A stretch of DNA of 64,000 bases from Papaver somniferum (taxonomy: Eukaryota > Streptophyta > Magnoliopsida > Ranunculales > Papaveraceae), in contig NC_039365.1 of NCBI RefSeq assembly GCF_003573695.1, positions 129,791,466 through 129,855,465 of the forward strand, read 5' to 3'. How positions within the stretch are numbered: the first letter of the stretch is position 1; each line of letters starts with the position of its first letter. The notes beneath the pieces were generated by a model. That model was not told the origin of the DNA. It saw only the letters and a list, made by a program, of their open reading frames with translations, and made no database searches. This document shows positions 1 through 59,609 of the stretch, in pieces. The position numbers and the translations under genes were made by a program.

Positions 1-5
1 CATAG

Positions 6-24354: not shown

Positions 24355-24356
24355 AT

Positions 24357-24368
24357 TGGTATCTGAGC
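24357..24368 (+). promoter_or_regulatory. Primer-binding site of E
   Basis: TGGTATCTGAGC, one mismatch from the initiator-Met type, directly 3' of the LTR. Confidence 0.72.
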
Positions 24369-33680: not shown

Positions 33681-34002
33681 GACTAGCGGCTGAAGATGAA
33701 GTCTGATCTCGCACGGAAGGCATAGCTTCTGATTCAGATGTAGATGAATGAAGAATTTCGTCATAATTCGTCATCAGAAAATTCAGAAGTCGGGTCTTCA
33801 TTGAAAATGTTGTAGAATCTTCGTCCGATGTCGTATTTTCGTGATCTACCCATGTTTCTTTATCCTCAGAAAATTTCCAAGCTTTAGCAAATAATATTTT
33901 CGGCTTTTGAGCACGTTTAAGGGCCGAAATTGACGAAACAGTAAACTTCCAGGAGGTTCTCAGAAAATTTCCAGCTGTCATGTAGTCCAAAGTTTTGGCC
34001 AC
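33670..34002 (-). other. Sense-strand ORF in F matching an intron of A's PMD gene
   Basis: The 110-codon frame (M at 34002) and the frame 3292-3495 in A start alike (M-x-KTL) and share SWKFTVS, AQ..KI and adjoining residues. In A the same DNA is inside the intron between exons 3 and 4 of the antisense PMD gene. It may be a conserved noncoding segment read by chance. The similarity can be seen directly in the bases. Confidence 0.35.
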
Positions 34003-35211
34003 ATCTTTTTGCTCGTTTCTCCAATTTTTGTGAATTTTGTATTTGTTGTAGAGGACATCAATACGAAGAGAATGGTATATGACTCATCCCTAGATTCTTC
34101 ACCAATTTCTCCCAGCTTTCTACTTTGTGCGGGACAGTGTAAAATCATCTTAGACAAGCTTGTTGTAAAACACTCATGTTGTGTCTTTAGACCATTCGCT
34201 TGTGTATTGAACGGCTGGTGAAGGATTTTAAAGTTATTGAGTCATTTGAGATCAGGAACCCTTGATTGATACATGATCATGGTGATTGGAATGCTATCTT
34301 GCTTCTGTCAGTCGTAGAAACATCACTTCTGAAACCCTGGTCACGGGACCATAACTGAGGTTGCTCTCAAGAGGGTATAATGTAATGACCATGGTTGCAT
34401 GTCCTGGTGGTAGAGTTACTTTTATGATGAATGATTGGCACATGAGAGTCTGGTGCCACGGGTCTTGGACTGTGAAACTGGTCATCATGATCAGTGGACC
34501 GTCAGTCCCCAGTATTTTGTTAAATCTCTCCTTTTCGTTTTCTCTTCTTCTGGCAGGACTTGGATAGAGGACCCAGATAGAAAAATTGATGTGAAGACCT
34601 AGGTGGTCGAAGTTGAAGGTACCTTGATGAAGGACTTAGTGGAAATAACCGGTGGACATCGATCGACTGTGGATGTTATGAATCCCGTCTAAGAATTGAT
34701 GCTTGCTTGTTGTATGCTCTGGAAACTGTAGGAACCTCATATGGTGTCGGAATTCGGTGCTTGACCCCAACTTTTGAAGCTAAGAGACTGAGTTATCATG
34801 TGAGGAAATAATCACTCAATTTGGAGTTGTATAGGTCATCCAACGAAGCATGCACATTTGTAATTTGTAATCCCGTACAAATTTTTCAGATTTCGTAGAC
34901 CTGAAGGTAAAAGACCATATATTTCAGCTCGTATATCCGATTGATGCACGCTTTTGGTATGTTGTAGAAGAGACATAGAAGAACATCTTTCTTTCAGGAA
35001 GAATTGTCCCATTCCTCACCCATTGGTACGTTTTTGTAAACCCATGGCCTGAAGTTTGTTGTATCTCCTTTGTAGAGGCGATGAGAACATCTTGTAGAAG
35101 ACTTTGGATTGTGTCCGTCTGTCGTGCAAGCTTTGGGAATACGTTCATGTTAACATGTTTTCATATCTACACATCTTGATATGAATCATTAGACTTTTCT
35201 ATTTTAAACAG

Positions 35212-35851
35212 ATTTGTTTATTAAAGTCTCCGACTTTGGCTCGTAGAAACTCTTAGTTGTGGGTGAGATCAGCTAAGGGAATCAAGTATGTAGCATCCTG
35301 ATGGGATCAGAGACGTAGGAGCATAACTGTACCTTGGATCAGTGTGAGATTGGTTGTGGTTCAACTACAGTCCAGACCGAAGTTAATTTGGAGTAGGATA
35401 GTGTCTGTAGCGGCTTAATACAATGTGTGTTCAATTTGGACCAGGTCCCGGCGTTTTTCTGCATTTGCGGTTTCCTCGTTAACAAAACTCGTGTCTGTGT
35501 TATTTCTTTTCCGCATTATATTTTGTTATATAATTGAAATATCACAGGTTGTGCGTTGTTCAATCAATTAGAATATCCGACCTTTTGGTTGTTGATTTAA
35601 ATGGATTGACACTTGGATATTGGTATTTGGTACCATCCAAGTTATCTCTCTAGTATTTGATAAAGACTCACAGATTTCTATTTGCTTGAGTATATATCAA
35701 ATCGAGAGATTGAGATATAAACTCTTTGATATACTTTTTATCTAGATTGAGTCTGATTGTCTAGTTGATTCTTTAGAAAGTATATTGGAGTTTGTCCATA
35801 CAGATTGCTAAGCTAAATATTGGGTGTGGTTGTTATACCCCCGTTTTTTCA
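35212..35851 (+). repeat. 3' LTR of element E, last 640 bp only
   Basis: It matches 23717-24354 and ends CGTTTTTTCA, followed by gtttt, which is the right duplication. The first 1.7 kb of the LTR is gone. Junction with F at about 35211 has no clear duplication, consistent with a deletion. Confidence 0.78.
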
Positions 35852-36193
35852 GTTTTTATATTATAATTAAAGTAATTACACTTGTACGTCAACTAGGCAC
35901 TTGATATTTATGTTATAAGGTTTTCGGTTATCAAGTGAACATGTTGTTGTACTATTCTATCGATTTCATATCGATAGAAGATCACACAAAGTGTCTTGGA
36001 TTTCTCCACTTGTCTGATATAATTATTCACGTGTTAGGCCAGTCCGGATTAACCCTATTTCAAGTGGACACTGTGTTGAAATATTCCTTGAGTGATTGTT
36101 GCTCCAAGAGGTTTATACATGGTAGAGATTGAATAGGTTGTGATTAAACGAAAAGATTGTGGTGTATTTGGGTACCCTCTCCTTTTCAGTGGA

Positions 36194-37634
36194 AAATTGC
36201 TATGCGAGCTTTTATTCAAGCACGTGATTTTCAATCATGGGTATATGTTGTTAATGGCTATGATGCTCCCGTTGTTGCAGTAGGTAACGTTAATGTTCCA
36301 AAAAATATTGGCGAATACGATGCTGCTGAGATACTTGCTGCAAAGCAAAACTCTGACGGTTTGAATGCCATTACCCCAAATGTCCATCACCATGTGTCAA
36401 ATTGCACTAGGTCTAAAGATGCGTGGGATTTCTTAGACATCGTATTCAAAGGTAATACCAGTGAAAAGGAAGCTAGGCTTCAAAACCTTAATTCCGATTG
36501 GGAAAACCTTCGTATGGCAGATGAAGATTCATTTGATGAGTTTAATCACGAAGTGCCTGAAATTGTTAATGCATCTTTTGCATTGGGTAAGACTATTCCT
36601 GAAAAGGACATTGTGATGAAAATTCTCAGATCGCTGCCATCTAGATACGACTCTAAGAAGCATGCCATCGTTGAGGGAAATAACCTGGATAATTTTTCCA
36701 AAAATATGTTGGTTGGGAAGCTTAAGATCTTTGATCACGAACACTCATCTAAATCCAAGGATGTTGCGTTCAAAGCACTAAAAGACACAAAATTACTTGA
36801 TAAAAGTAAAAATTTGTATATCTCTGAAGATGATCTCTGAGACAGATTCATCAGATGAATATCTTGAAAAATCATTCTCGATGATCACAAGACAGTTTAG
36901 AGATATTATGTTGAAGAGAAGTAAACGGTTCTCTAGAGATAAGCCGAAAGCATCAGTCAAACCTCATAATCGTATTCCTCCTAAAAACAGGGATACAGAT
37001 GAAACTAATGACGAGGATATGCCTCAGTGCTTTAAGTGTAAGGGTTTTGGCCATTTTGCAAACGAATGCCCAAATCGCAGAAAATACACTGGGAACAAGG
37101 GTCTTTCTGTGACACTTGATGAGATGTCTGACAATTATGATTCTGATCAAGACAAGAAATCAAGGTTGCTCTTCTATGTGAAAATATTGATTTTGATAAT
37201 TGTATCAATATATACATCAATCTTGATAATCTTTTAGAAACCCAATCAATATGGAAGAATCAATTGAACCTTCTTTTGGAAACTCTATGTTTAATGTTTC
37301 GGGATCTACATTGTGCCTAGCAGCTTGCATTTCACAAGCGTCTGAATCATCTTATGTGTTGACATGCTCCTATTGTTCTCTCAAGGGTCATGAACTTTCA
37401 AAAAAATTCAAGTACAAACACAAGATGAGATACGTCAACAAGCTTCAACGAAGAGCAGATCGTCTAGCTACCAATCTTAAATTAGCAGAGAAAACAGCTG
37501 AGGTATGTAAGATCTTATCTTCATCGAAGAAATTAGTTTCCAAGGATAGATTTAGACCATTAGAAAAGAAAACATGGTCTAAACATAAGGAAAGGCAGGG
37601 TTCCATGAATTCCGACCAAAAAGGTCATGGTTGA
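36194..37634 (+). pseudogene. Element C gag, main part (after D)
   Basis: It continues gag from 19321 with AAATTGCTATGCG. Two frameshifts are visible against E: a 2-nt loss at about 36834 (frame ends 36840) and a 1-nt loss near 37165 (frame ends 37237). It then runs from about 37251 to TGA at 37632-37634. Knuckle 1 is at 37028 onward (CFKCKGFGH...C intact). Knuckle 2 (CSYCSLKGH) lacks its final Cys, replaced by Phe. The C-terminal coiled coil has KLQRRADRLATNLKLAEK. No pol follows. Confidence 0.78.
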
Positions 37635-38015
37635 CAAATTGTTGTTCACTACAACACAACTTGTCTCATGTCATGGTTGATTGTGTTGTCATGTGTATCT
37701 TGTCTCATGTGCATGTTCAAAAGAGACAATATCCTGCACACCTCAGGCTTTAAATAAATAGTTTTGTTTTTAGATTTGTGTTGTTTGGTTTTTGGAATTC
37801 CTCAATGTCACTGTTGATATTGGAAAGACCGATTTGCCAAAAGAAGAGGGTAATTATCGACACTTCTACTCTTTATAGGGTTGTGAGTTGAACATGTACG
37901 AACCTGTTTAAGGTTTCAAAACCCTACATTCCTTTTTCCTTCTCTGATATTATTTATATCTTAAGACTGCTTCTTGAGGTTTGATTGTGAACTCCTCTCA
38001 GAAAACCGTGCTTTC

Positions 38016-38246
38016 ATGGATACTCCAAGCACCATGTCTTCTGATGGGAAAGATATCAATATGATTGTTAAGCCATCAATCACCAAGGAAAAAGAGAAAT
38101 CTCCCTTGTCTCCAACTTTAAAAAGAAAAATAAGGAATATGAGGAAGCCAAGAGCAGTTCCTTCTAATTCTCAGAAGTTTTCTGATGTTCTTGAAGAGTT
38201 GAAGCTGGCAAGAAAGGAGATTCAACAAATAAGGGCTTGTATTTAA
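38016..38246 (+). CDS. Small second ORF of element C (unknown, conserved in E)
   Basis: The 76-codon frame starts at ATG 38016; a later ATG at 38034 aligns with the start in E. It is basic in the middle (KRKIRNMRKPR) and ends with a Glu/Lys/Ile helix. About 80 percent of aligned residues match E by eye. It lies 380 nt after gag, before the noncoding tail. It may be expressed from a spliced RNA. The function is unknown; RNA or chromatin binding is a guess from charge. Confidence 0.5.
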   Translation: MDTPSTMSSDGKDINMIVKPSITKEKEKSPLSPTLKRKIRNMRKPRAVPSNSQKFSDVLEELKLARKEIQQIRACI

Positions 38247-39784
38247 GATCGTTAGAAATTCAGAAGGCCCTGGTTCGACATCATCAGCCAAGACGGTTTA
38301 TTGGCATTGACTCCTTACTTCATGAACCATATGTACCAATGGCTGTTGACGACAAGGAGTTCAGGGACGATAAGGAATTTTTCAAAGATCTTAATGTCTA
38401 GTAAATCTTCGGATAATAATTTTATTTTCTTATTTTGTTTAGAAGAATAACTAGGGTTTGGAATAGCCATTATTGTGAGTACACTATGTCCAACGTTTTC
38501 ATCTTCTTATTTTTAGATTTATTTATTTAAATTCTAAAGTTGGTTTGGAAGATGATTTTTGCAGTATTGATCTTTATGATTTTATATATTGCAATATGTT
38601 ATGGGATATGTGTGTTTGCGTCCGTGAACTATTATTGTCCCATACAATGTCAAAAGTTATCTTGTTTATATGTCGATATGCAAATATTGATACAGGATCG
38701 ATGAACTTCTTGGCATAAAAAAAGTTAAGCATTATGTCATTTATTGATGGAAGATAGGTTAAAATATTTTGTTTACGAGGATTATGTCTATTTTATGTCA
38801 TTATGCAAATAGTGATGGAAAATAGAATGAATCCTTGTATATTCCGCAGTATTGATCTTTCCCTGATCCATATTTTATGTGTATACTGTGCGACTCCATA
38901 AGTCTTCTTGTGTGAGCATTTCCAACTAAACTAATCATAGATTTGTTTGTGATTTATTTGGTTGTGTATTCCGATTAAATTAATCGTGGGTTCTTTTGTA
39001 GTTAGTTTAATTGAGAATTTTTGGATAACAAAATCATTTTGTGGTTTTTGGTGTCCAAAGAAATCCTACTTTTCTCGTAAAAGTAAGGCCACTCTTGTTG
39101 TTCTTTCGGGAATGACATCAAATGGGGGAGGGTTCTTTTGAACTTGCGCTTAATTTCCATATCTTTGTGGGGAGTGCGGCTATGTAATTTTTAGGGGTTA
39201 TCTTGTATCTTTATGAACTCCTTTATGAATGCATTTAGCCTCGGCTATATGATTGCATTTAAACAAGTTGATATGTACTTTTCTTTGGTCTTGAGCATCT
39301 CCGTGGAAATTTCATTAGGATCCCACTAGTTTTCATACCTTTGCCAATTTTATTGACAAAAAGGAGGAGAATTAATGTGTAGTTCGTACCACAAATACAT
39401 ATGGTTTCGGATCATTATGTAAGAGGGAGTGGTTTTCATGTTGAGATGAAAGTATTGACTAAGGGGGAGTGATATATATCACCATATAATTGTTGCCGAA
39501 GTTGTGATATAAGAACTTTGATACTGTGTAATAATACTATGACACTGTATAAGAATAATCGAGAGCTTTTGTTTTCTCATAGTTATGGCTACGGAACTTC
39601 AACAACTATGATGCAGAATTGGACATCTATGGAATCATGGGATTACTTGGAAAAGACGAAGTTTTCGAGTAATGTTGAATCACCAAGGAGATCAAGCATG
39701 TGGACGAGAAGCTACAAAGTTTTATTTATTTTGTAATCCATATGTATTGATAGTTTTGCCACTAAAATTGACAAAGGGATAGAT
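38247..39784 (+). other. Noncoding 3' tail of element C with polypurine tract
   Basis: No conserved ORF is seen. It contains copia-like motifs before the 3' LTR: TTGACAAAAAGGAGGAGAATT (39352-39373), GACTAAGGGGGAGTGAT (39456-39472) and finally GACAAAGGGATAGAT (39770-39784) abutting the LTR. RT and integrase are absent over 1.5 kb. Confidence 0.6.
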
Positions 39785-40623: not shown

Positions 40624-41972
40624 TGATAGGTGCAATATTTGCACTAGTTAGGTACTCAAATGCTTTGCTTTCTTGGTAGTTTTTGTATCATTATGCTTTG
40701 ATTTTGTTTTCTTTTGAGTTTATTAGGTGTTTGAGATCATCTTAACCAAAAGGAAGTGGAACTCATTCAAAGTCGGGATTTCTTCACACCACCTTGAAGA
40801 GGACGAAAAGACGATGGCAATGGCGAAATAATGGAGTCAATTCGACCTCGTATGAAGAAGATATGAGCATTTGAAGCAAGTCAAAGTTGCAAAAGGGTGA
40901 AAGCATAGAATTGCTATTGGCACCCTAATCATACGTTAAGGAGCAGACATGCTTCAAATGAAATTTGCACTGTCAGTCTTCTAGGACTGACAGCTTGATG
41001 AGAATTGACATGCAGTGGAGCTATTGATTGCGATAAACAGCATGGCATTGTTAAAGCTCGTAATGATGGAAAAGTGATGAAAGGTTCAATAATGAAGATT
41101 GGAAGGGTGTTGGCTCGAGATGATGTTGCTGCTGTCGGCGATGATAGTCGTGGGTTTTGAGAAGCTGCGAAAGCACCAATATCGGCAGTAATGAAGGGGA
41201 TAGAAAGTGGTGATGACGATCAGAATATGGAGTTGGCAGAGAAGCTCGAGAATAGCAGGAAGGAGTTGATTGGGTTTTGTTGAATCGATGGATAAGAAGG
41301 TCGAGGCAGTGATGAACGGAGTTGTAGTGTTGCTGCCATTATTGGCAATGGAGAATAACCGGATATGGGAGAACACCATTAATGGCATTAATGAAGATGA
41401 GAGCTCGGGTAGAGAAGATGGAGTTTATTGCGCTGTGATGAGTGATCGGAGATTTTCCTTTGCTGATGGAGTTTCTTCCATTGATGGAAGATGATATGGG
41501 TTTGTCTCGAAAGAGAGTTTGGCAGTGATGTTGGTTGTTGTAATGATGGTATCATGGAGTTGCTTCCATTATCGATGGTTGTGACTGGTGAACTGTTGAT
41601 GGTTGAACATGGAGATGAGACAAGAAGAGAGTTGTTGCTACTCGAGCTGTGACCAATTGCAGTGACGACAAGGAGTATGGTGGCAGTTCAATTATGTTGG
41701 GTGTATCGAGCTTTGCTTGAGCTGATGGAAGCAATGGAAAGAGAATTGTGATGTTGATCATCGGTGGGTGCAAAGCTGAGGTGCAGAGAAAAACTGAAGT
41801 AGAATACGAATAGGATTTACTCACGGAGGGCCTGGTATACGAGGTTACTACCGGAAAATAGAAATAAAAGGAAAAGTCAGGGAGTTTCAAAACTCACTGA
41901 GGGACAAGCCATCGAGAGAAGTCCGAAGGTAATAACAAAACTCAGGGAGAAATATTTTTCACAGAGGGTTTG
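40624..41972 (+). repeat. 5' LTR of H, part 1
   Basis: It starts TGATAGGTGCAATATTTGC and matches 56494-57830 in the 3' LTR. It stops at GAGGGTTTG, the gtttg duplication of I. An ORF here (41270-41494) is also in the 3' LTR but has no known domain. Confidence 0.8.
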
Positions 41973-42173
41973 TGTTGATGGTGGTTTTTAGCTTAGAGTC
42001 AAAATCGTAAAACTGTACATCTGACATGACGTCACTATGACCATTAGCACATTTATTGAATCAATCAGCATGCCTACGTAATAATTACCGGGGTACCCTT
42101 TTTTTTACATGGGTCATGTTCCAAGACAGAACCCTTAACACTGACTGACATCATCTATGCCAAACCCTAATTC

Positions 42174-42530
42174 TCATGCTACCGCGCCAAGGCATGCCAA
42201 CCATGCCAGCCGCACCACTGTGCCAATGGCAGACCATGCCAGCCACGTCACCGTGCCAAGGCATGCCAACCATGCCAGCCACACCACTGTGCCAATGGCA
42301 TACCATGCCAGCCACATCTCCGCACCAAGGCATGCCAAGCATGCCATCCGCACCACTTCGCCAATGGCATGCCATGCCAGCCGCACCTCTGCGCCAAGGA
42401 ATGCCAACCATGCCAGCTGCACCACTGCGCCAATGGCATGCCATGCCAGCCGCACCTCCGCGCCAAGGCATGTCAACCATGCCAGCCGCACCACATGTGC
42501 CAATGGCATGCCAACCACCTTACTGCGCCA
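42174..42530 (+). repeat. Short tandem repeats GCCAAGGCATGCC / CACCACTGTGCCAATGG
   Basis: Units of about 60-66 bp repeat GCATGCCAACCATGCCAGCC, then ACC-CTGCGCCAATGGCATGCC. The 3' LTR has the same block at 49372-49650. The GGCATGCC core is palindromic. Confidence 0.65.
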
Positions 42531-42589
42531 TACCATGCCGACTTTCCCTATGCGTCTACCAAAACGAAGGCGTGCGATGATCAACGTCC

Positions 42590-43900
42590 ACCCTTCCATC
42601 TTAGATGCAAATCTTAGCCGTCCAAGGTCGCCAAACAACGCATGGTAACCTTTGGCCCAAACCCTAGTTTTGGCCACGCCAAACCGCGCCAAGGCATGCC
42701 ATGCCACATGTGCCAATGGCATGCCAACCACCTTGCCGCGCCATACCATGCCGGCCTTCCCTATGTGGCTACCAAAACGAAGGTGTGCGATGATCAACGA
42801 CAACCCTTCCATATTAGATGCAAATCTTAGCCGTCCAAGGTCTCCAAACAACGCATGGTAACTTTTGGCCCAACGCTAAAACCCTAGTTTGGCCGCGCCT
42901 AAACCACTCCAAGGCATGCCGACCACGCCACATGTGCCAATGGCATGCCACGCCATCCACCTTGTCGCGCTTAAGCCATGCCATGCCGGCCTTCCCTTCA
43001 CGGCTGGCAAAACGAAGGCATACGACAATCAATGGCCACCCTTCCATCTTAGATGCAAATCTCAGCCGTCCAAGGTCACCAACCAATCCATGCTAACCTT
43101 TGGCCCAACGCCAAAACCCTAGTTTGGTCGCGCCTAAACCACGCCAAGGCATGCCGACCATGACAAATGTGCCAATGGCATGCCATGCCATCCACCTTAA
43201 GCCATGCCATGTCGGCCTTCCCTATGCGGTTACCAAAAAAAAGGCTTGCGACGATCAACGACCATCCTTCCATCTAAGATGCAAATCTTAGCCGTCCAAA
43301 GTCGCCAACCAACGCATGGTAACCTTTGGCCCAAAACCCTAGTTTTGGTCACGCCCAAACCGTGCCAAGGCATGTCGGCCATGCCACATGTGCCAATCGC
43401 ATGCCAGCCACCATGCCGGCCTTCCCTATGCGGTTACCAAAACAAAGGCTGGCGACGATCAACGACCATCCTTCCATCTGAGATGCAAATCTTAGCCGTC
43501 CAAGGTCGCCAACCAACGCATGGTAACCTTTGGCCCAACGCCAAAACCTTTGTTTTGGCCATGCCCAAACTGCGCGAAGGCATGCCAACCACTTTGTCGC
43601 GCCATACCATGCCGGACTTCCCTATGCGGCTACCAAAAAAAGGCTTACGAAGATCAACGACCACTTTTTCATCTAAGATGCAGATCTTAGCCGTCCAAGG
43701 TTACCAGCTAACGCATGACAACCTTTGGTCCAACGCCAAGCCCTAGTTTGGTCGCGTCCAAACAAAGCCAAAAATCTAACTTTTGGCCGCGCCTAAACTA
43801 GGCCATATTAAAGCCGTACCGGCCATGCCACTGGCTACCAAATGAAGGGTTGCAATAATCAACGGCTACCCTTCCTCTCAAGATGCAAAATCTCGACCCT
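42590..43900 (+). repeat. Tandem array of 7 units of about 200-235 bp in the 5' LTR of I
   Basis: Each unit starts with AGATGCAAATCTTAGCCGTCC, continues with AACGCATGGTAACCTTTGG, then AAACCCTAGTTTGG and CGCCAAGGCATGCC. Starts are near 42601, 42813, 43047, 43277, 43481, 43676 and 43880. The 3' LTR holds seven at 49722, 49911, 50120, 50357, 50573, 50796 and 51018. AAACCCTA is the telobox motif and is in most units. Confidence 0.7.
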
Positions 43901-44570
43901 CGAAGGTCACCACCGAGCCGGCAAGTCTCCCAAGCTCAACTTGCCGAACAGCAACATGCTACATGTTTTTCACGAAAACACTCGAGACATCAACACATGT
44001 CACAAACTGGGGGATGATCACTGGGTATTGGTTTGGCGGTTTACAACGTGCGGCGTACACTACGCCCGTTATAAGACAGTGTCATAAGGATGAGGCGGTT
44101 ATTAAATACAGGGAGTAATGGTGAAACGCTTTCTTTTATGGAACATCAATTCCAGGCTAACCGGTTACCACCTCCTTCCATTTACTCATCCGTTTTCCAT
44201 TTCTTACGAGACCAGAGTACGTTTCACTTCGACTTGTATAGATAGGTCTTACCTATTTCCACCGAACAACAAGTTCATGTCAGGAAGATACAAGTTGATA
44301 CAAGTCGTGAAACAACTACTCTTCCAGAATCAGTTATTCTGGTCTCAACACTCTCTTCGCTTCCCTTCCAAAAACCAACCCTTCTCCTTCACTTTGTGAC
44401 CGAAGCAAGTCTGGAACGACCATTTCTTGGTTTAGGCCAGATTTGCACAGATTTATCTCTCGAATCTAATGTAATCCCTTGCAGTACGTTGTTTAGGGTT
44501 TAAACTTGTTTCTCAACCACGCACCCGAAATTACCAAAATCAGCAGAAATCGTTTTCACTCTCAAACAAT

Positions 44571-44587
44571 TGGCGACCACAGTGGGA
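44571..44587 (+). promoter_or_regulatory. Primer-binding site of I
   Basis: TGGCGACCACAGTGGGA, two bases after the LTR, starting TGG as tRNA primer sites do. The exact tRNA cannot be named without a tRNA comparison; an Arg-type match is common in this kind of element. Confidence 0.6.
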
Positions 44588-45234
44588 GGTTGATCTTTCA
44601 GTCACGATGTCAATTTTCAATCCTCGATCTCATACCTCGACCCAGACGTTAGAACAGTAAAATTAAATGATCCGTTCAGGAATCGACGACTCAGCTACTA
44701 GGCGGCTCGATTACCAGTAGTGACACGGCAAGGGACGACTGGGGACTTCCAAGGGGTTAGAAGCAAAAAATCCGCCCAGGGATCGGCAACACGATAAGGA
44801 ACGACTAGGGACTTTCCATAGTCACGGCGATGTTTCCCATAAAACTCGGTCTTACATCCGGGAGATTCCTTTTTCACCAAAAGATCCAAAAACCGAGTAA
44901 GTCATGCCTAGACAAAATACGTGGTTTACTACTTCAGGTTTTCACGGGAATGATGAAACCAATTGCCATGTTATGTTTCATCTCATGCTCTCTGTCGACA
45001 AGCAATTCTCACGATTCAGTGTCTTTCCTGGGATGTTTGCACCATTCGCAATCGTAACCAAAAAGCATCGTTATTCTAAAAGCAGTTCATTCCAAATAAT
45101 AATCCAAAACCCTCAAGGTAACATTTGTCTGTCAAACCAGAAATCCAGGAAATCAAAACCGTAAACTAGGCGTTTCATTTGCCTTTCAAAAAAAAAAAAA
45201 ACTAAAATAAGAAGTTCAGAAGACAGAAATGCAT

Positions 45235-46167
45235 TCAAGGAAAGTTTTTCAACAATGGCTTGCTCTTCTTGGAAAAAGCCTCTTTCGTGCTTTGGAGAGC
45301 CGCCCTCTTCAACTTCAGCTTCTTGGACAACTTTTCGACTTCCGCTTTTTGCTTCTTCACCATATCCGTAGAAGGACCTTCGACTGTTTCGTCCAGCAAC
45401 TTTTCAACCTCAGAGAAACCTTCAACGAACCAAGGAACATTGAACTCGAAGTTTACACACGTGTCACGATGGAATCTCCAGCTCGAGACTACATCCTCAG
45501 AAACAGTATTACCAGTTATATTGCACATGTCGTCAATCGAAGACAAAGCTTCCCCCACACGCTTAACCAACGCAAATCGACTAGTAATTTTCTTGGTCGT
45601 GGCGATATTTTCGTAGCTTTCCCATATCCTGGTGTATAGTGTCGCGTGTTTGGCTGGCACACTAAATACCCCGATCAACACATGATCTGGATGAGGAACC
45701 AGATATGGAGGGTTGAAAGTGGCGCCCGCGACTGCATCAGCAACCGACAAGGGATTCCTAACGACAATTGCATCTGCAGCCACTGGAGTACTCTCCATTG
45801 TTTGAGTCACAACGACATTTTCATCTCGATCAAAATCCATTTCAAGGTCGCCCAGTGCGGATATCACAGTTGGAGACAAAGCTGTATCTCCGCCATTCTC
45901 CGTCTCAGAGCCATCTTCAGAAAGAAAGGAAGATTGGAAAGAAGAAAAAACATGCGGGAGACTCACTGATTCGCTTTCAGACCGACTAGAGGAAGATTCA
46001 CCACTGCTGTCGGAAGAACTACTCTCGCCATCACTGGACTCTGAACTTTCATCCTTCTCGGGTTCCCCATCACCATGGATAGGCTCAGCACCGCCACCCT
46101 CTGTCTCGAGAAACGATATTTTCTGACTACTTGCAAGTTTGGTAAAGGTGTTCACGCTGCTGAGACC
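45235..46167 (-). pseudogene. PMD gene of I, coding exon 2 (acidic stretch and coiled coil)
   Basis: The exon follows CCCAG (46168-46170) and is open for 310 codons to the TGA/TAG-type stop at 45235. The first third is rich in Glu and Ser (runs of ESSDGESSSSDSSGES), then FSVPAKHATLYTRIW, shared with A, and a Lys/Glu/Leu coiled coil to the end. This is likely a disordered then helical tail. Confidence 0.75.
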
Positions 46168-46252
46168 CTGGGAAAGATACAAAGACGGATACTTAGAAAA
46201 GAAACAAGGATATGCGCGATCCAACCAAAATCAAGAGGAAAAGCATACGTAC

Positions 46253-47928
46253 CCGCATATTAGACGAACTTAAAGTCGGTAGGATGTCGAATATGACTGG
46301 GAACCGTCTGCACGGCTTTTAGACCTTCGCTCTTTCACTTGGGGACTATCTACATTCGGGCTAACGGATTTTCGCTTGGTCGAAGAAGGATACCTTAGCA
46401 GTAGGTGCTTCGCTAAAGCCGCAGGAGAAAGCTTACTGCGACGGTTTTCTACCACATCATTCACGAATCCATGGATAACGAGAAACTCATCCTGCCAAAA
46501 TATGTTATATTTGAAGGTTGTTGATGGATTTCATTCCACAAGCGGAAAAGGGAAACTTTTACCCGACACAAGAACACTAGCATCGAGAACAGTTGGCAAC
46601 GAGTCTTCTGGAACAACTGGCTGACGAACGAGTAGGACCCCTTGGTCAAAAACCATATGCCGAGCCGCCCTATCGATATTGTAAGAAACTTCTTTGCAAG
46701 ATCCTCGAAAGAAAGACGTCACATGACCGGGCGTGCAGCTTCACATGAGCACCATATCTCCAACACTCATATCCTCTTTTTCAGAAGACAAAGACATGCT
46801 CGGAGCAGGAGCAAAGGTATTGATCTGAGTTATGAAAGCATGCACCGGAGCCCATGGACAAAAATTGACCATGTGCGAGTTGTCAAGGAATCCAACCAGG
46901 TTCGAACCAATCTTTGGGTACCTATTCGACCAGCGCAGTATCCTAGAACTACCCCAACACTCGGGAAGTACAGCCAACGGTTTTGGAGCATACCTTTCGA
47001 AGTGCTCCCACATCCACGCTTGGAGAAGGGCGGCATGAATATACGAATCCACTTTCATGTAGCCATTTGAAACGTACATGTCCGCGACCAGATGATCCAA
47101 GTGTGTGTACAGAGAACCAAGAAACAAGCCGCCAATATGGAGAACGACACCTTTTGCCAATTTTATGGCAAACTTGATAAGTTCCTGTCTTATCTCCTTC
47201 TTACCAGAGACGTCATCGAAAATATCTCTGGATAACCAAAGTGCCAAGAACGCTGCGACATGAAGTGTACTATTTTTCTGATTTGGCTCCAACTCATCAG
47301 GAAACCATTGAGAAACCCACCATACATAGAAGCACCTCGTCTCGTTTTCTTTCCGGACGAATCCTTTTGATTTCGCAACCAGAGCGGCGCGCATTTCTTC
47401 TTCATCTGCAAACAACTTGACATCGAGGTTTCCTATTACGGGAAGGTTCAACAAGACGACCACACTTTATAAAGAGATAGTCATTTCACTCCATATGCAT
47501 ATGGCCGTGCGAGTGTCTGGACACCATCTATAAATAAAAGCAACCAAGCCTGGAATATCTTTCCTAATTTGAAGCACTGCGGAAGCCGCGACAGCATCAA
47601 TAATCTGCGCCTTGGTCAAACTGGATTTTACACACTCCTGGCTCATCATGAATTGCATCCATTTCTCAAAGGGAAGCAACGGACTCACAAAGATTTTAAA
47701 GTCAATGGGAGAAGCAGAATACTCTTTCCTCTGAAGACAAAACCTTATTACACCTCCAGGTCGAACTGACCAGGCCTCTCCTTCACTTTCCGGACCAGTC
47801 AGAAGAATTGACACATACTTGGGATGATTTTTCCTAATTGTGGCGAATGTTACAAAGAAATCATCGTCTATGTTTGGATTGAAATTTCCAACATCTTTCG
47901 GTATAGTAGGACTTTTCTCAAATGACAT
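46253..47928 (-). pseudogene. PMD gene of I, coding exon 1 (mobile domain)
   Basis: It opens with ATG 47928 directly after an acceptor (GTCAG then G). Residues 1-153 precede the first stop; A has the matching segment with LSRRPLEKFS. PMD blocks lie at about residues 160-420. The donor GTACGTATGC (46243-46252) gives a phase-0 junction after the frameshift is taken into account. All disruptions are single-base changes and the length is otherwise intact. Confidence 0.78.
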
Positions 47929-47929
47929 C

Positions 47930-48503
47930 CTGACGAAATTCTCTCACGCTACTTTCACCTTCGAAATAACTACAATGGAACAATATGAAGAGAAATTATT
48001 ACGGAAAGTGCATGGAAATTATTTTATCAGACACAAGAGATCCATCCTGGATGCAAACCAATTTGTTGCAAAGTCATAATGCGTATGAGTAAAGAAATGG
48101 GGACTGACAGACCTTGCATTACCACCTCATGCCAAGGTCGTACCCTGCAGCAGGAAATTTGCGCCCGGACGAGGAGGCGCTCCCCACCATGGGAACAATA
48201 CACACGGCCACACTAGGAAAAGGGAGGAAACCCTAGGAGCTAGGTTTTCACGGGAAGGGAATGATAGTTGCTAGCTCATGCATGCCTACTTTGCACAGTA
48301 ATTGAGGCGGCCAACATTACTAAGGTATTCACGCCTAAATGTTACTACAAGTTCACGCAAAGCATATTTACGGCTAAGATTCATACCAACACAAAGGAAC
48401 AATATTTTTACAAGTTCATGAAAAGGTACGCCTACAGCTAGGGTTTGCACTAACACAAGAAAACAAGAAAAACAAGTTAAAGAGGAAGTCCTGGAAGACA
48501 TAC
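47930..48503 (-). other. 5'-UTR intron of the PMD gene in I
   Basis: The donor is CCAAG/GTATGTC at 48504/48503 and the acceptor is GTCAG at 47930-47934, one base before the ATG. A has the same design (5885-6731). Introns here are opposite to the genomic RNA and so would not be spliced out of it. Confidence 0.6.
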
Positions 48504-48586
48504 CTTGGATTCGCTCGTCCGCTTTACTGTTACCACACGGCCAGAATAAAAAAATAATGTGTGAAATAAAAGGAGAGGCCGACCCC

Positions 48587-48594
48587 CTTTTATA
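48587..48594 (-). promoter_or_regulatory. TATA box of the PMD gene in I
   Basis: TATAAAAG followed by GGGGGTCGG on the minus strand, about 85 nt before the 5'-UTR intron. Position matches the cassette in A. Confidence 0.55.
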
Positions 48595-48659
48595 GGCGTG
48601 GTACTTGGGAGTTTGAATAAGGAAAGGACCTCCTATTTGAGTCAAGTAAGGAAAAGAGG

Positions 48660-48915
48660 CAATCGAGCCCGCGAAGACAAATCACCATGCCAAGCCGTCC
48701 GCGCATGCTTTGCCTCACCAAACCGCGCCATTGCCTTGGCCCCACCATGCCAGGCCGTCAGCACCATGTCTTGGCCCCACCACGCCAAGCCGTCCACATA
48801 CTTTGCCTCACCAAACCGCGCCTTGCCTTGGCCCCACCATGCCAAGCCGTCCGCGCCATGACTTGCTGCGCCAACACCAACAACTCGCCAAGCCAGGGTC
48901 ATGATGTTCCCTAAC
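48660..48915 (+). repeat. GC-rich short repeats upstream of the PMD promoter in I
   Basis: Units such as CCACCATGCCAAGCCGTCCGC and CTTTGCCTCACCAAACCGCGCC repeat three to four times. They resemble LTR repeat wording (CATGCCA). ORFs here are repeat artefacts. The stretch to 49156 has no other gene. Confidence 0.6.
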
Positions 48916-49156
48916 CCAGCCAAGGTGATACATGGCCATACTAAGACGACGATCTTCATCTTACCACTTCACGGTCTACACCACAAATAGAATCTACGCA
49001 AGGCCGCCAAACATGAGGATCATGAACTCTCCTTACCTCTCGAAAAAGGTTAGTCGGACTTTCCTGACCATCTTTTCACGACCTGTCATTTTGATTTTTG
49101 TCCTCGCTTGTCACCATCTTATGCTTACCTCGCAACAATGCTCTTATTCCGAGCTA

Positions 49157-49170
49157 AGCAGGGGACTTAA
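49157..49170 (+). promoter_or_regulatory. Polypurine tract of I
   Basis: AGCAGGGGACTTAA abuts the 3' LTR and nearly equals the tract of A. Confidence 0.7.
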
Positions 49171-51743
49171 TGTTAATGGTGGTTTTTAGCTTAGGGTCAA
49201 AATCGTAAAACTGTACATCTGACATGACATCACTATGACCATTAGCACATTTATTGAATCAATTAGCATGCCTATGTAAGAATTACCGAGGTACCCTTTT
49301 TTTTACATGGGTCATGTTCCACGGCAGAATCCTTAACATTGACTGACATCATCTATGCCAAACCCTAATTCTCATGCTACCGCGCCAAGGCATGCCAACC
49401 ATGCCATCCACACCACTGTGCCAATGGAATACCATGTCAACCACATCTCCGCGCCAAGGCATACCAACCATGCCAGCCGCACCACTGCGCCAATGGCATG
49501 CCATGCCAGCCGCACCAATGCGCCAATGGCATGCCATGCCAGCCGCACCTCCGCGCCATGCCATGCCAGCCGCACCTCCGCGCCAAGGCATGCCAACCAT
49601 GCCAGCCGCACCACATGTGCCAATGGTATGCCAACCACCTTGCTGCGCCATACCATGCCGCCCTTCCCTATGCGGCTACCAAAACGAAGGCGTGTGATGA
49701 TCAACGACGACCCTTCCATCTTAGATGCAAATCTTAGCCGTCCAAGGTCGCCAAACAACGCATGGTAACCTTTGGCCGAAACCCTAGTTTTGGCCACGCC
49801 AAACCGCGCCAAGGCATGCCATGCCACATGTGCCAATGGCATACCATGCAGGCCTTCCCTATGCGGCTACCAAAACGAAGGCGTGCGATGATCAACGACC
49901 ACCCTTCCATCTTAGATGCAAATCTTAGCCGTCCAAGGTCGCCAAACAACGCATGGTAACCTTTGTACCAACGCCAAAACCCTAGTTTGGCCGCGGCTAA
50001 ACCACGCCAAGGCATGCCGTGCCATCCACCTTTCCGCGCCTAAGCCATGCCATGCCGGCCTTCCCTTCACGGCTGCCAAAACGAAGGCGTGCGACAATCA
50101 ACGGCTACCCTTCCATCTTAGATGCAAATCTCAGCCGTCCAAGGTCACCAACCAACACATGGTAACCTTTGGCCAAACGCCAAAACCTTGTTTGGTCGCG
50201 CCTAAACCACGCCAAGGCATGCCGACCATGCCACATGTGCCAATGGCATGCCGCACCATCCACCTTGCCGCGCCTAAGCCATTCCATGCCGGCCTTCCCT
50301 ATGCGGTTACCAAAACAAAGGCTTGTGACGATCAACGGTCGTCATTCCATCTAAGATGCAAATCTTAGCCGTCCAAAGTTGCCAACCAACGCATGGTAAC
50401 CTTTGGCCCAAAACCCTAGTTTTGTTCACGCCCAAACCGCGTCAAGGCATGCCGGCCATGCCACATATGCCAATGGCATGCCAGCCACCTTTTCGCGCCA
50501 TACCATGCCGGCCTTCCCTATGCGATTACCAAAACAAAGGCTGGCGACGATCAATGGCCATCCTTCCATCTAAGATGCAAATATTAGCCGTCCAAGGTCG
50601 CCAACCAACGCATGGTAACCTTTGTCCCAATGCCAAAACCTTTGTTTTGGCAACGCCCAAACCGCGCCAAGGCATGCCAGCCATGCCACATGTGCCAATG
50701 GCATGCCAACCACCTTGCCGCGCCATACCATGCCGGCCTTCCCTATGCGGCTACCAAAACAAAGGCTTGCGAAGATCAACGGCCACTTTTCCATCTAAGA
50801 TGCAGATCTTATCCATTCAAGGTTACCAGCTAACGCATGGGAACCTTTGGCCCGACGCCAATCCCTAGTTTGGTCACGCCCAAACAAAGCCAAAACCCTA
50901 ACTTTTGGCCGTGCCTAAACTACGCCATATTAAAGCCGTACCGGCCATGCTTTCATGCCACTGGCTACCAAACGAAGGGTTGCAATAATCAACGGCTACT
51001 CTTCCTCTCAAGATGCAAAATCTCGACCGTCGAAGGTCACCACCGAGCCGGAAAATCTCTCAAGCTCAACTTGCTGAACAACAACATGCTACATGTTTTC
51101 CACGAAAACACTCGAGACATCAACACATGTCACAAACTGGGGGATGCTCATTGGGTATTGTTTTGGCGGTTTACAGCGTGCGGCGTACACTACCCTCGTT
51201 ATAAGACATTGTCATAAGGATAAGGCGGTTAGTAAAACAAGGAGTAATGGTGAAACGCTTTCTTTTATGGAACATCAATTCCAGGCGTTACCGGTTACCA
51301 CCTCCTCCCATTTACTCATCTGTTTTCCATTTTTTACGAGACCAGAGTACGTTTCACTTCGACTTGTATAGATAGGTCTTACCTATTTCCACCGAACAAC
51401 AAGTTCAGGTCAGGAGGATACAACACTCATAAAATATTTGCTAGCTTTCCATCTGTTAGCTTCCCACTTTCTGATACAAGTCGTGAAACAACTACTCTTC
51501 CATAATCAACTATTCTGGTCTCAACACTCTCTTCGCTCCCTCCCCAAAACCAACCCTTCTCCTTCACTTTGTGACCGAAGAAAGTCTGGAATGGCCATTT
51601 CTTTGTTTAGGCCGGATTTGTACAGAATGATCTCTCGAATCTAAAGTACTCCCTTGCAGTACATTGTTTAGGGTTTAAACTCGTTTCTCACCCACACACC
51701 CGAAATTACCAAAATCAGCAGAAATTGTTTTCACCCTCAAACA
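49171..51743 (+). repeat. 3' LTR of I (2.57 kb)
   Basis: It starts TGTTAATGGTGG and ends CACCCTCAAACA. It has the same repeat arrays as the 5' LTR (short repeats 49372-49650, seven long units 49722-51018). Small length differences lie in the arrays. gtttg follows. Confidence 0.84.
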
Positions 51744-51748
51744 GTTTG

Positions 51749-52921
51749 GTAACCGTGAGTTGCTGCTGGAGTTGAAAGAAAATTCACGGAGGTACTTGTG
51801 TCCGAGATCAAGATGAGTTGAACAATAGTTTGTCAGTCTTGACAAACCGACAAGCCAAAAAATTTAAACGGGCTGGACTTAAGCAATGCGTGGCCCGTTG
51901 GCTGCGACTAATTTCTATTGACGGCTAGACTTGGCCAGTGGCTTATTTAGGAGAGTTTGAAGGGAGAGTGGAAAAAAATATGATATATTTTATCATACTT
52001 TTGGAGGAGAGAAAGTGGAGAGCTAGGGTTTGGCGATTTTGGCGTTTGATCACCACGATTGAACCTAGGGTTTGCTTTCTTTTTCTTCTTATTATTTTTC
52101 ATGGGTTTTAAGAAATCCATGAGTAGCTAAATACTTCATATTGGTTAAGGATGTTGTCGGATATCATGAACATGTCACTAAATTAATATATTGGTTTTGT
52201 TATCTCATTCAAATCATTATTGTCTTGTTCTATGATTTATTATTACCACGTATGATTGTATGATTGTTTGTTTAGGAGCGCTACTAAATGAGCATGAATG
52301 CATTTCTAAAGTTAGGCCAGGGTTTTGAGGTACGTAATTGTTGATAAACCTTGTCATAAGTAGCATATTGTGATTACCAATTGTATTCAAAACCTTTGTG
52401 TGATTGCATGTAGAATCTTGACCTATGTTAAATAGTTTACTCGTAGTATTTCTATTGCATGGAGTAGTCTGATTCATAGAACTTGAGGCTCTTGGAGGAT
52501 TAAACCTAATAGCACGTTGCATTAGGTTATTCGCTGAGTAGTATTCATATATTCATCGTTATGGTATGTGATGACATAAGGAATTTGCCGGAGTATGCTC
52601 TCGATGGGGTACTTTAGGAATTTTGATAATAAATGACTGAATGAAAACATTAGTTATTAGTCGAAGTGCATGTATTATGATTGATGATGAACCCTTAACC
52701 AGTATTCCCAACTTATTGATTCTCTTTAATCATTCTTTGTTATTATTATTAGTTTAATTATTTTAGACTCAAATCAAAAATCCCCCCCCCCCAGGTTACT
52801 TAAGTTTTCAATTACGAATAACAACCCATATCTCCTTGGGGAACGAATATGTTCTTATTACTATACTATTATTTATAATTGTGAAGTGAAAGAACTTAAA
52901 TTATTTTTGTGTCGGCTGACA
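51749..52921 (+). repeat. 5' LTR of H, part 2
   Basis: It resumes at GTAACCGTGAG and matches 57831-59003 in the 3' LTR. It ends GGCTGACA before the primer site. It contains a run of 11 C at 52782-52792, where the 3' LTR has five. Confidence 0.8.
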
Positions 52922-52934
52922 ACCGGCCAAATTT

Positions 52935-52952: not shown

Positions 52953-53040
52953 GGCATAGCGGATTGTCATTTTGTTTTTGATTTCTTATTTTTAGTTTTT
53001 TATTTTGTCATGAGAATCGTGTTTCATGTATTTATTTCTC

Positions 53041-54162
53041 ATGGATGGAGCATATTGGAACAATCGATACGGCTTCCAACCTCAACAATATGACAACTTC
53101 CAATCATTCCACGGGTATAATCAAAACCAATTTATTGGCTATGATCAATATCCTACGGAATATTTTGGTCCTTGTACGTACCAACAACCTTATGGCGGGT
53201 ATGTGTGTGAACAACCACAAGGGTTGGAGGATTCTTATGCTCATGAACAACAAGTCTCTAACTTTTTGGACAAATTTTCCAACTTACAACAAGAGGTTCA
53301 AAAATCTAAAGAGACTAGAGACGAGCAACTCCAAGAACTTCGTGAAGGTATTGCTAACTTACGAAGAGATATTGATAAATATAAGGAAGAAAGGTATGAG
53401 GAAGAACTTTGCTTTCAAAGCAATAACTATTCTAATGTTCTTGTGGTTTGTGATGAATATTTGATTGATGCTAATGTTGAAAAAGGCCAATCTTTGGGAA
53501 GTTTCGTTGATAATTGTGTAGCTTACTCAAGCATTGATCTTTATAATGATAAAGAATCTATTAAAAAGGTAGAGCTCGAGGATGATGCAATGAGTGTTCT
53601 AAAGAAATTCCTTATGGATAGAATTTCATCTGCAAAAGAGTATGTGTCGAACAACAAGGAGGAGTATGTTGAGAATGTGACCGTTATGACTAATATTGTG
53701 GAAGACCCAATTGAGCTTGCAAAGGATTGTAATGATGATGTTTACGCCGAGATTTTGGTTAAGGTAGAAACGAATGAAGAATGCTTGCAAGGTTTGATAG
53801 AGGACCACGATGTGCAAGAGGTAAATAATTCACGTAAATTCTTTAAGGATGAAGAGGATACCATAATACAAGAGTTGCAAGGTTTGTCTAACCCTTTGCC
53901 TATTAATCCTCCTCCTTTACCTCGTATTGGCTTGAATGTATGTGCTTCGAGAATATTGTTAAATGACTTTGTTTCTCGATATCTGCCACTAGAAACATTT
54001 GATTCTCATACTATGAATGTTTGCAAAGAAGAAACCATAGAAGTTCCCGATTTTTATGTTCTTTATACACTTCCAAGTGTAGAAAAGAATAAGTGTGGGG
54101 GAAACTTCTATGGGGCGATAGCTTCAGTTTTGTTTTCTTGTACTAATATGTGTGTGAAGTGA
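53041..54162 (+). CDS. Single ORF of element H, 373 aa, unknown
   Basis: An upstream ATG at 53026 gives 378 aa; 53041 (ctcATGGATGG) has the better context. The N-terminus (about 60 residues) is rich in Gln, Tyr, Asn and Phe, low-complexity and prion-like. A coiled coil follows at about residues 70-120 (SNLQQEV...LQELREG). The middle is acidic, with a VLVVCDEY block and a Pro-rich NPPPLPRIGLN segment at about 290, ending in a Cys-containing tail. No zinc knuckle, protease or polymerase motif is seen. It is intact, which is notable for a nested element. It could be a diverged gag-like or structural protein of a non-autonomous element. Confidence 0.6.
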   Translation: MDGAYWNNRYGFQPQQYDNFQSFHGYNQNQFIGYDQYPTEYFGPCTYQQPYGGYVCEQPQGLEDSYAHEQQVSNFLDKFSNLQQEVQKSKETRDEQLQELREGIANLRRDIDKYKEERYEEELCFQSNNYSNVLVVCDEYLIDANVEKGQSLGSFVDNCVAYSSIDLYNDKESIKKVELEDDAMSVLKKFLMDRISSAKEYVSNNKEEYVENVTVMTNIVEDPIELAKDCNDDVYAEILVKVETNEECLQGLIEDHDVQEVNNSRKFFKDEEDTIIQELQGLSNPLPINPPPLPRIGLNVCASRILLNDFVSRYLPLETFDSHTMNVCKEETIEVPDFYVLYTLPSVEKNKCGGNFYGAIASVLFSCTNMCVK

Positions 54163-56493: not shown

Positions 56494-59003
56494 TGATAGG
56501 TGCAATATTTACACTAGTTAGGTACTCAAATGCTTTGCTTTCTTGGTAGTTTTGTATCATTATGCTTTGATTTTGTTTGCTTTTGAGTTTCTTAGGTGTT
56601 TGAGATCATCTTAACCAAAAGGAAGTGGAACTCGTTCAAAGTCAGGATTTTTTCACACCACCTTGAAGAGGACGAAAAGACGAAGGCAATGGCGAAAGAA
56701 TGGAGTCAATCCGACCTCGTATGAAGAAGATATGAGCATTTGAAGCAAGTCAAAGTTGCAAAAGGGTGAAAGCACAGAATTGCTATTGGCACCCTAATCA
56801 TACGTTAAGGGGCAGACATGCTTCAAATGAAATTTGCACTGTCAGTCTTCTAGGACTGACAGCTTGATGAGAATTGAGATGCAGTGGAGCTGTTGATTGC
56901 GATAAACAGCATGGCAGTGTTAAAGCTCGTAATGATTGAAAAGTGATGACAGGTTCGATAATGAAGATTGGAAGGGTGCTGGATCGAGATGATGTTGCTG
57001 CTGCCGGCGATGATAGTCGTGGGTTTTGAGCAGCTGCCGAAGCGCCAATATCGGCAGTAATGAAAGGGATAGAAAGTGGTGATGACGATCAGAATATGGA
57101 GTTGGCAGAGAAGCTCTAGAATATCAGGAAGGAGTTGATTGGGTTTTGTTGAATCTATGGTTAAGAAGGTCGAGGCAGTGATGAACGGAGCTGTAGTGTT
57201 GCTGCCATTATTGGCAATGGAGAAGAACCCGATATGGGAGAGCACCATTAATGGCATTAATGAAGATGAGAGCTCGGGTAGAGAAGATGGAGTTTGTTGC
57301 GCTGTGATGAGTGATCGGAGATTTTCCTTTGCTGATGGAGTTTCTACCATTGATGGAAGATGATATGGGTTTGTCTCGAAAGAGAGTTTGGCAGTGATGT
57401 TGGCTGCTGTAATGATGGTATCATGGAGTAGCTGCCATTATCGATGGCTGTGACTGGTGAACTGTTGATGGTTGAACAGGGAGACGAGAACAAGAAGAGA
57501 GTTGTTGCTACTCGAGCTGTGACCAATTGCAGTGACGACAAGGAGTCCGGTGGCAGTTCAATGGTGTTGGGTCTATCGAGCTTCGCTTGAGCTGATGGAA
57601 GCAATGGCAAGAGAATTGTGTTGTTGATTATCGATGGGTGCAAAGCTGAGGTGCAGAGAAGAACTGAAGTAGAATACGAATAGGATTTACTCACGGAGTG
57701 CCTGGTATACGAGGTTACTGCCGTAAAAGAGAAAGAAAGGGAAAAGTTAGGGAGTTTCAAAACTCACTGAGGGACAAGCCATCGAGAGAAGTCCGAGGGG
57801 AATAGAGGGAGAAATATTTTTCACGGAGGGTTTGGTAACCGTGAGTTGCTGCTGGATTTGAAAGAAAATTCACGGAGGTACTCGCGTCCGAGACCAAGAG
57901 GAGCTGAACAATAGTTTGTCAGTCTTGACAAACCGACAAGCCAAAAAGTTGAATGGGCTGGACTTAAGCAACGCGTGGCCCATTGGCTGTGACTAACTTG
58001 TATTGATGGCTAGACTTGGCCAGTGGCTTATTTAGGCGAGTTTGAAGGGAGAGTGGAAAAAAATCTGATATCTTTTATCATACTTTTGAAGGAGAGAAAG
58101 AGGAGAGAAAGGGTTTGGCGATTTTGGCGTTTGATCATCACGATTGAACCTAGGGTTTGCTTTCTTTTTTTTTCTTATTATTTTCATGGTTTTTAAAAAA
58201 TCCATGAGTAGCTAAATACTTCATATTGGTTAAGGATGTAGTCGGATATCATGAACATGTCACTAAATTAATTTATTGGCTTTGTTATCTCATTCAAATC
58301 ATTATTGTCTTATTCTACGATTTATTATCGCCACGTATGATTGTATGATTATTTTTTTAGGAGCGCTACTAAATGAGCATGAATACATTTCTAAAGCTAG
58401 GCTAGGGTTTTGAGATACATAATTGTTGATAAACCTCGTCATAAGTAACATATTGTGATTACCAATTGTATTCAAAACCTTTGTGTGATTGCATGTAGAA
58501 GCTTGACCTATGTTAAATAGTTTACTCGTAGTATTTCTATTGCATGGATTGGTCTAATTCATAGAACTTAAGGCTCTTGGAGGATTAAACCTAATAGCAC
58601 ATTACATTAGGTTGTTCGCTGAGTAGTATTCATATATTCATCATTATGGTATGTGATGACATAAGGAATTTGTCGGAGTATGCTCTCGATGGGGTACTTT
58701 AGGACTCGTGATAATGAATGATTCAGTTACAACATTAGTTATTAGTCGAAGTGCATGTATTATGATTGATGATGAACCCTTAACCAGTATTCTCAACTTA
58801 TTGACTCTCTTTAATCATTCTTTGCTATTATTATTAGTTTAATTATTTTAGACTCAAATAAAAAATTCTCCCCCAGGTTACTTAAGTTTTCAATTACGAA
58901 TAACAACCCATATCTCCTTGTGGAACGAATCTGTTCTTATTACTATACTATTGTTTATAATTGTGAAGTGAAAGAACTTAAATTATTTTTGCGTCGGCTG
59001 ACA
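56494..59003 (+). repeat. 3' LTR of H (2.5 kb)
   Basis: TGATAGGTGCAATATTTAC to GGCTGACA. It matches both parts of the 5' LTR with few changes (for example the gtttg site is uninterrupted near 57830). Right of it the sequence is foreign gag, so the original target flank was lost. Confidence 0.82.
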
Positions 59004-59050
59004 ACCGACTAAGATTCACTTAAATTATTTTGAAGTGAAATAACTTAAAG
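59004..59050. other. Deletion junction with filler at the right end of H
   Basis: Between the LTR end and B's gag, the bases at 59013-59050 (TCACTTAAATTATTTTGAAGTGAAATAACTTAAAG-like) resemble a shuffled copy of the end of the LTR (GTGAAGTGAAAGAACTTAAATTATTTTT at 58958-58990). This looks like filler copied during end joining. C's remaining 3' LTR and part of B's gag were lost here. Confidence 0.6.
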
Positions 59051-59607: not shown

Positions 59608-59609
59608 AA

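Follow-up and report, generated by a model that had tools for sequence, protein, structure and literature searches.

An antisense plant mobile domain gene as the sole recognisable gene of a non-autonomous LTR-retrotransposon family in opium poppy

Plant mobile domain (PMD, PF10536) proteins occur in plant hosts, where MAIN and MAIL1 are host genes supporting silencing, and in mobile DNA. We analysed a stretch of 64,000 nucleotides of Papaver somniferum (contig NC_039365.1, positions 129,791,466 to 129,855,465; hereafter the window), in which a long terminal repeat (LTR) element, here called element I, carries a PMD gene on its opposite strand. The locus raises the question of whose gene this is, and why an element should hold it and little else. 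We find that element I belongs to a non-autonomous LTR-retrotransposon family with many copies, in which the antisense PMD is the sole recognisable gene. PMD in Gypsy elements, antisense accessory open reading frames (ORFs) and non-autonomous Tat elements are already known, whereas our searches of the open-licence literature found no LTR family of many copies whose sole gene is an antisense PMD.

Anatomy of element I and its PMD gene

Element I comprises the following features, with positions counted in the window.

41973 to 51743: element I as a whole, with the PMD unit on the minus strand
41968 to 41972, unstranded: left target-site duplication GTTTG
41973 to 44568, plus strand: 5' LTR
42181 to 43771, plus strand: tandem arrays of the LTR, with units of 33/69 bp and ~206-235 bp and many occurrences of the palindrome GGCATGCC
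44571 to 44588, plus strand: primer-binding-site-like TGGCGACCACAGTGGGAG, after the 5' LTR
44589 to 45234, plus strand: leader in which no Pfam family is matched; the five further copies that carry it are 80-94% identical here
45235 to 47928, minus strand: pseudogenised antisense PMD gene, ATG at 47928, final stop at 45235-45237, PMD match at residues 112-361
45238 to 46167, minus strand: second coding exon, with a Ser/acidic linker and a C-terminal region
46168 to 46252, minus strand: coding intron GT...AG of 85 bp, its acceptor agreeing with the exon start in the relative P0027
about 47970 to 48503, minus strand: intron of the 5' untranslated region (5'UTR)
48586 to 48594, minus strand: TATA box TATAAAAGG, 666 bp before the PMD ATG
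48683 to 48865, plus strand: tandem repeats of 92 bp lying upstream of the PMD promoter, with 8-mers such as CCATGCCA common with the LTR arrays
49156 to 49170, plus strand: polypurine-tract-like AAGCAGGGGACTTAA, directly before the 3' LTR
49171 to 51743, plus strand: 3' LTR
51744 to 51748, unstranded: right target-site duplication GTTTG

The two LTRs start with TGTT, end with CAAACA (TG...CA) and are 93.4% identical over 2464 aligned columns; the end of the 5' LTR was set at 44571 in the analyses of LTR divergence, expected stops, LTR alignment, further copies and arrays. Element I is nested in the 5' LTR of another LTR element, whose LTRs lie at 40624-52925 (minus the insertion) and 56494-59007, and we take this host repeat to be the LTR of an Athila-like element. 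The second host-repeat copy (56494-59007) holds one GTTTG at 57830-57834, a paralogous empty site. The insertion is clean because the flanks of element I match this copy (94.5% over 56494-57834 and 93.5% over 57830-59007), which has the single GTTTG at the position of the element. The complete LTRs, primer site, polypurine tract and duplication listed in the initial annotation were thus all recovered, with the empty site in addition, and element I has every hallmark of an LTR retrotransposon (two TG..CA LTRs, primer-binding site, polypurine tract and target-site duplication). The span 45235-48594 given there is that of the PMD unit, and the element itself covers 41973-51743. We regard the anatomy described here as close to certain.

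When the internal region (44572-49170) was searched in six frames against Pfam at E<=1, PF10536 alone was found, with no gag, protease, reverse transcriptase, RNase H or integrase. The match is restricted to the minus strand (E 1.4e-30; 107.1 bits vs a curated cut-off of 34.9), in agreement with the earlier view that an opposite-strand PMD is the only recognisable cargo. Element I is therefore non-autonomous by six-frame Pfam search, and so are five of six further copies, judged by aligning their LTR, leader and end of the gene.

The PMD copy in element I is a pseudogene, because in-frame stops (47467-47469, 46741-46743 and 46531-46533) stand where its relatives read through. An intron around 46531 was ruled out, as the stretch is exon in the relatives P0018 and P0026. 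One further in-frame stop (46270-46272) lies just before the donor of the coding intron. From the LTR divergence, 2.3-2.7 stops would be expected in an initially intact PMD, so that the gene was probably intact on arrival and has decayed since. The Kimura two-parameter distance between the LTRs (0.055-0.069) and a Papaver substitution rate of 8.1e-9, as given in a passage of PMC12582370, place the arrival at 3.4-4.3 million years ago. As a side observation, the first 395 codons (46744-47928) contain no frameshift, compared with five indels between the unique LTR parts, numbers that are too small to weigh.

All 18 aligned PMD relatives match PF10536, and Papaver somniferum is the source of the nearest named proteins. 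The C-terminal region of the PMD of element I is 36% identical over 128 residues to that of a second PMD in the window and 44% identical to the poppy protein P0027. This region, GxFSVP..LYxxIW, is common to both PMD lineages of the window and to the poppy proteins P0008 and P0027; it gave no Pfam match at E<=1 in either window copy (45238-46167 and 2356-2973).

The family in the poppy genome and in the window

The family was sought in the 2.715 Gb assembly, where first-look matches count as candidates and not as confirmed genes. The PF10536 scan turned up 22762 candidates; scoring 109 of them yielded 149 matches. With the window PMD as query, 105 of 15793 candidates were scored; all 105 match over 394-395 residues, at 83-89% identity to the window PMD (self excluded). 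The 30 best-matching copies, the window copy included, served for the promoter, intron and LTR counts.

In 27 of these 30 copies, the opposite strand bears the polypurine tract and LTR start at 1081-1463 bp upstream of the ATG. The 9-mer TATAAAAGG occurs at -621 to -694 in 21 of the 30 copies (25 with the looser TATAAAW); among 3000 base-shuffled upstream sequences, 4 contain the 9-mer at such a distance. Within the window, TATAAAAGG occurs only twice, both times before a PMD gene; as a within-window signal it was dropped, since at least two occurrences were found in 22 of 100 shuffles, and the case rests on the 30 copies. For the 5'UTR intron, the donor GT is kept in 28-29 copies and the acceptor AG in 27-29; the whole upstream region has a mean conservation of 0.89, and the splice sites are only slightly above their surroundings. 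The coding intron in its strict pattern was seen in 2 (donor) and 1 (acceptor) of 6 further copies. For the promoter and introns first proposed from this one locus, the TATA 9-mer and the 5'UTR splice sites recur across the copies.

For six of the 30 copies, plus-strand ones picked by hand and not at random, 8 kb downstream were inspected. Five of them lead from a 5' LTR through the primer-binding site and a leader of ~660 bp straight to the antisense PMD, with no gag-pol; in the sixth, this layout is truncated. In these five copies, TGGCGACCACAGTGGGAG is identical or has one change. Copies with the same LTR start, primer-binding site, leader and antisense PMD are spread over many contigs, so the gene does travel with the element, as the initial annotation had supposed. 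Members with gag-pol in this place and no PMD, which would have contradicted that annotation, did not appear among the six copies viewed, all of them PMD-selected; every family copy was found via the PMD, and PMD-less members could not enter the sample. Judged by its accessory gene, the family appears to be Ty3/gypsy and Tat-like. Scans of IMG/VR gave 0 matches for the LTR signature, and 17 pattern stretches, none confirmed, for the PMD protein of the related element E2.

In the window, the signature GGGACTTAATGTNNATGGTGGNTTTT is found at 7188 (plus), 32346 (minus, one mismatch) and 49162 (plus), and in 0 of 100 shuffles. The first two positions belong to related elements.

541 to 10148: E2 as a whole
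541 to 1263, plus strand: gag-protease-like ORF of E2, likeness by eye
2353 to 5884, minus strand: antisense PMD of E2, broken by a frame change and stops, ATG at ~5884, stop at 2353
7197 to 10148, plus strand: 3' LTR of E2, end approximate, start and polypurine tract matching those of element I
26528 to 34249, minus strand: third related element, an inverted relic, 3' LTR from 32362 downwards

E2 and element I agree in polypurine tract, LTR ends, and the position, orientation and domain order of the PMD. The PMD of E2 has its own TATAAAAGG at 6892 and is 37% identical to that of element I; its main exon matches PF10536 at E 3.4e-26, so that the profile search proposed as a check succeeded for both copies. 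Between the LTRs of the two elements, only the ends align, in stretches of 36-143 bases. The ORF at 541-1263 had no Pfam match, and no pol domain was found at E<=1 in the three plus frames of 1-6900. In its make-up, E2 is similar to the non-autonomous GAG-PROT elements that PMC12582370 describes as 'Group I' of the Retand elements in Papaver. In the relic, the LTR is interrupted at about 27885-30495, and internal pieces match the PMD unit of E2 with the PMD domain missing; a search with PMD1 across the window gave no third PMD match.

The element that harbors element I has TTTTGGCGCTGCTGCCGGGGAGG near 52932, after its 5' LTR, and a primer-binding-site-like TGGCGCTGCTGCCGGGGA near 52936; its ORF at 53014-54162 had no Pfam match above the cut-off. 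Elsewhere in the window, copia-type repeats pair 24483-26528 with 36189-38274 (80.6%) and 23691-24357 with 35190-35854 (93.3%), and one ORF within them (24826-25707) has a gag-polypeptide domain (PF14223). A direct repeat, 10810-13432 and 59609-62254, is 90.6% identical over a distance of 48.8 kb and contains 22-bp tandem repeats; its two units may be the ends of yet another nested element, or two copies of one.

Origin of the PMD and constraint on it

The origin of the PMD was assessed with a tree of 49 rows. It contained the two window PMDs, the 26 proteins nearest to them and a subset of 21 MAIN-like proteins, drawn from 121 with 100 set aside. 'MAIN-like' is our label; 20 of these 21 rows come from a search with a MAINTENANCE OF MERISTEMS-like protein and one from a separate search. 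Both window PMDs group with the near proteins and are split from the 21 MAIN-like rows with support of 100/100; they share PF10536 with the host PMD-C proteins MAIN and MAIL1 and do not group with them. A passage of PMC5418596 describes the PMD-A1/A2 clades as exclusively Gypsy-encoded. The window PMDs, which are associated with LTRs, are putative PMD-A members. From the split and the Gypsy-exclusive clades, we conclude that the PMD is very probably a resident gene of the element family and not mobilised host cargo.

The other origin, a host PMD gene captured by one LTR element, would have in its favor that hosts do possess PMD genes such as MAIN and MAIL1, and that introns and a promoter are host-gene-like. 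Against it are the split from the MAIN-like proteins, the same layout in five of six further copies, an LTR start shared by 27 of 30, and the PMD of E2, which is 37% identical and has the corresponding position and orientation. With the tree split and an LTR context common to the copies, capture was rejected as highly improbable, and the 'host-type' part of the initial inference is not upheld.

A resident gene could still be an ordinary extra ORF of Ogre/Tat elements, a passenger in a derivative family that lost gag-pol. Statements in three sources speak for this: PMD is present in 57% of Ogre elements (PMC6317226), it is the most frequent non-canonical domain among Gypsy consensuses (PMC9289625), and non-autonomous Retand sublineages are common in Papaver (PMC12582370). 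Additionally, E2 keeps a gag-protease-like ORF beside its PMD. Element I shares with the Gypsy-borne PMDs (PMD-A; extra ORFs of Ogre/Tat) the presence of PF10536 in a multi-copy element of Ty3/gypsy type; it differs in that the PMD is the sole recognisable gene, with nothing between leader and PMD in five of six further copies. A dispensable passenger should decay after the loss of gag and pol, yet gene, promoter and splice sites recur in the copies, and the PMD domain is recognisable across the 37% identical split, while most of both LTRs can no longer be aligned.

For the estimate of selection, two of the 30 copies were excluded because of their length; the 28 used had been chosen by protein similarity. 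The maximum-likelihood omega is 0.73, and with the tree unchanged its fit is 9.8 log units better than that of an omega of 1; a value below 1 speaks against a passenger, albeit with this sampling bias. The median Nei-Gojobori dN/dS is 0.44 over 378 pairs, vs 0.85 and 0.94 in shifted frames. Several observations weigh against constraint. In these protein-selected copies, the mean dN hardly changes (0.045-0.064) over a range of mean dS from 0.083 to 0.164, and the copy tree is star-like. The dN/dS is 0.83 in the closest quarter of pairs, 0.74-1.29 in the stop-free copies (3 of 28) and 0.56-1.26 in the second exon. A fall of dN/dS with dS, as a sign of selection on a transposing lineage, was distrusted because copy choice holds dN near-constant. 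Constraint on the PMD thus has moderate support, and the passenger explanation is a serious contender, if somewhat less likely than its negation.

Proposed role of the PMD and its relatives

The explanation that we propose, on which we are evenly divided, is a non-autonomous family served by a helper in trans, with the PMD as a regulator of its own family. The LTR-driven genomic RNA would be packaged and copied by the gag-pol of a helper, a step that is quite probable. Opposite-strand introns and promoters pass intact through genomic RNA and reverse transcription; those of the PMD would survive in this way, since the gene lies on the opposite strand and is not spliced from the genomic RNA. The antisense unit would be transcribed from its own TATA, spliced and presumably translated. 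The protein might then bind the LTR arrays of its own family and keep them out of silencing. An element can draw on the gag-pol of others but could not do so for a factor that has to fit its own LTR, which would explain why an element without gag-pol keeps one gene. That the PMD protein is a DNA-binding regulator of its own family seems to us neither likely nor unlikely; that it is a VANC-like anti-silencing factor recognising short palindromic motifs in the LTR tandem arrays is a tentative proposal.

The comparison with VANC, the accessory protein of VANDAL elements, for which anti-silencing has been demonstrated, draws on structure models. In models of related proteins, the predicted fold of the PMD domain resembles the VANC21 fold, and both systems have an accessory mobile-element protein and tandem-repeated short motifs in noncoding DNA. 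In contrast, VANDAL is a DNA transposon (MULE), and no sequence-level match to the PMD was found (Pfam, 18 PMDs). DUF1985, the VANC sequence family, is absent among the Pfam matches of the 18 PMDs at E<=10, in a HMMER search whose filters discard weak matches. With Foldseek by itself, neither PMD model had a significant match, and a sequence search of the PDB with the PMD alignment returned one match, unrelated (E 0.67). Regarding the motif, GGCATGCC did not stand out when conservation was followed position by position along the long LTR repeat unit, and the typed unit is without that palindrome. Upstream DNA outside the 92-bp repeats has 41 8-mers common with the LTR arrays, vs 28.2 in shuffles, a weak excess reached by 17 of 300 shuffles.

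Alternatively, the antisense RNA rather than a protein might matter, by pairing with the genomic RNA and feeding siRNA production. Passages of two papers point this way, one reporting plant mobile domain genes as phasiRNA sources in tea (175 PHAS loci, PMC10673657), the other that Grande gene23 is transcribed in antisense and has a promoter of its own for this (PMC7264820), and the recurrence of TATA and splice sites among copies would fit. As this leaves the kept domain order and the recognisable protein in both PMD lineages unexplained, we consider it improbable.

Among the systems closest to the family, Retand shares an antisense gene beside the 3' LTR, tandem repeats, non-autonomous members and abundance in Papaver, according to passages of PMC11963269 and PMC12582370. 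Retand elements have antisense ORFs between pol and the 3' LTR, and 97% of the Retand clusters in PMC11963269 encode Transposase_28. In element I, no Transposase_28/TRP28 (PF04195) was found in six frames at E<=1; it differs from Retand in lacking this domain and pol, and in having its tandem arrays inside the LTR. Non-autonomous LTR elements of the LARD type resemble element I in their long LTRs, several-kb internal region and absence of gag-pol. LARDs are not known to have coding capacity, whereas the family of element I carries one recognisable gene.

According to PMC9289625 and PMC8616336, it is unknown what the plant mobile domain does, and the latter proposes a counter-silencing strategy for the transposon PMD, without naming a mechanism. 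VANC and PMD are both mentioned, separately, in the passages of PMC8616336 and PMC6419827, and no report of a PMD-VANC fold link was found in the open-licence literature. In its widest form, our proposal is that the PMDs of plant LTR retrotransposons are structural relatives of VANC with sequence-specific DNA binding and anti-silencing activity, co-evolving with palindromes in the tandem arrays of their own LTRs, and that a gag-pol-less class keeps this factor as its sole gene; we put it forward as a rather doubtful, speculative reading. If true, the host MAIN/MAIL proteins would be in the same fold family as a transposon anti-silencing protein. The fold link to a DNA-bound transposon protein and a candidate motif in the elements' own LTRs would open the counter-silencing idea to a direct binding test. 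The PMD-only family would also be a natural experiment, in which the PMD should pay even where all else is borrowed, and surveys keyed to polyprotein domains could miss such families.
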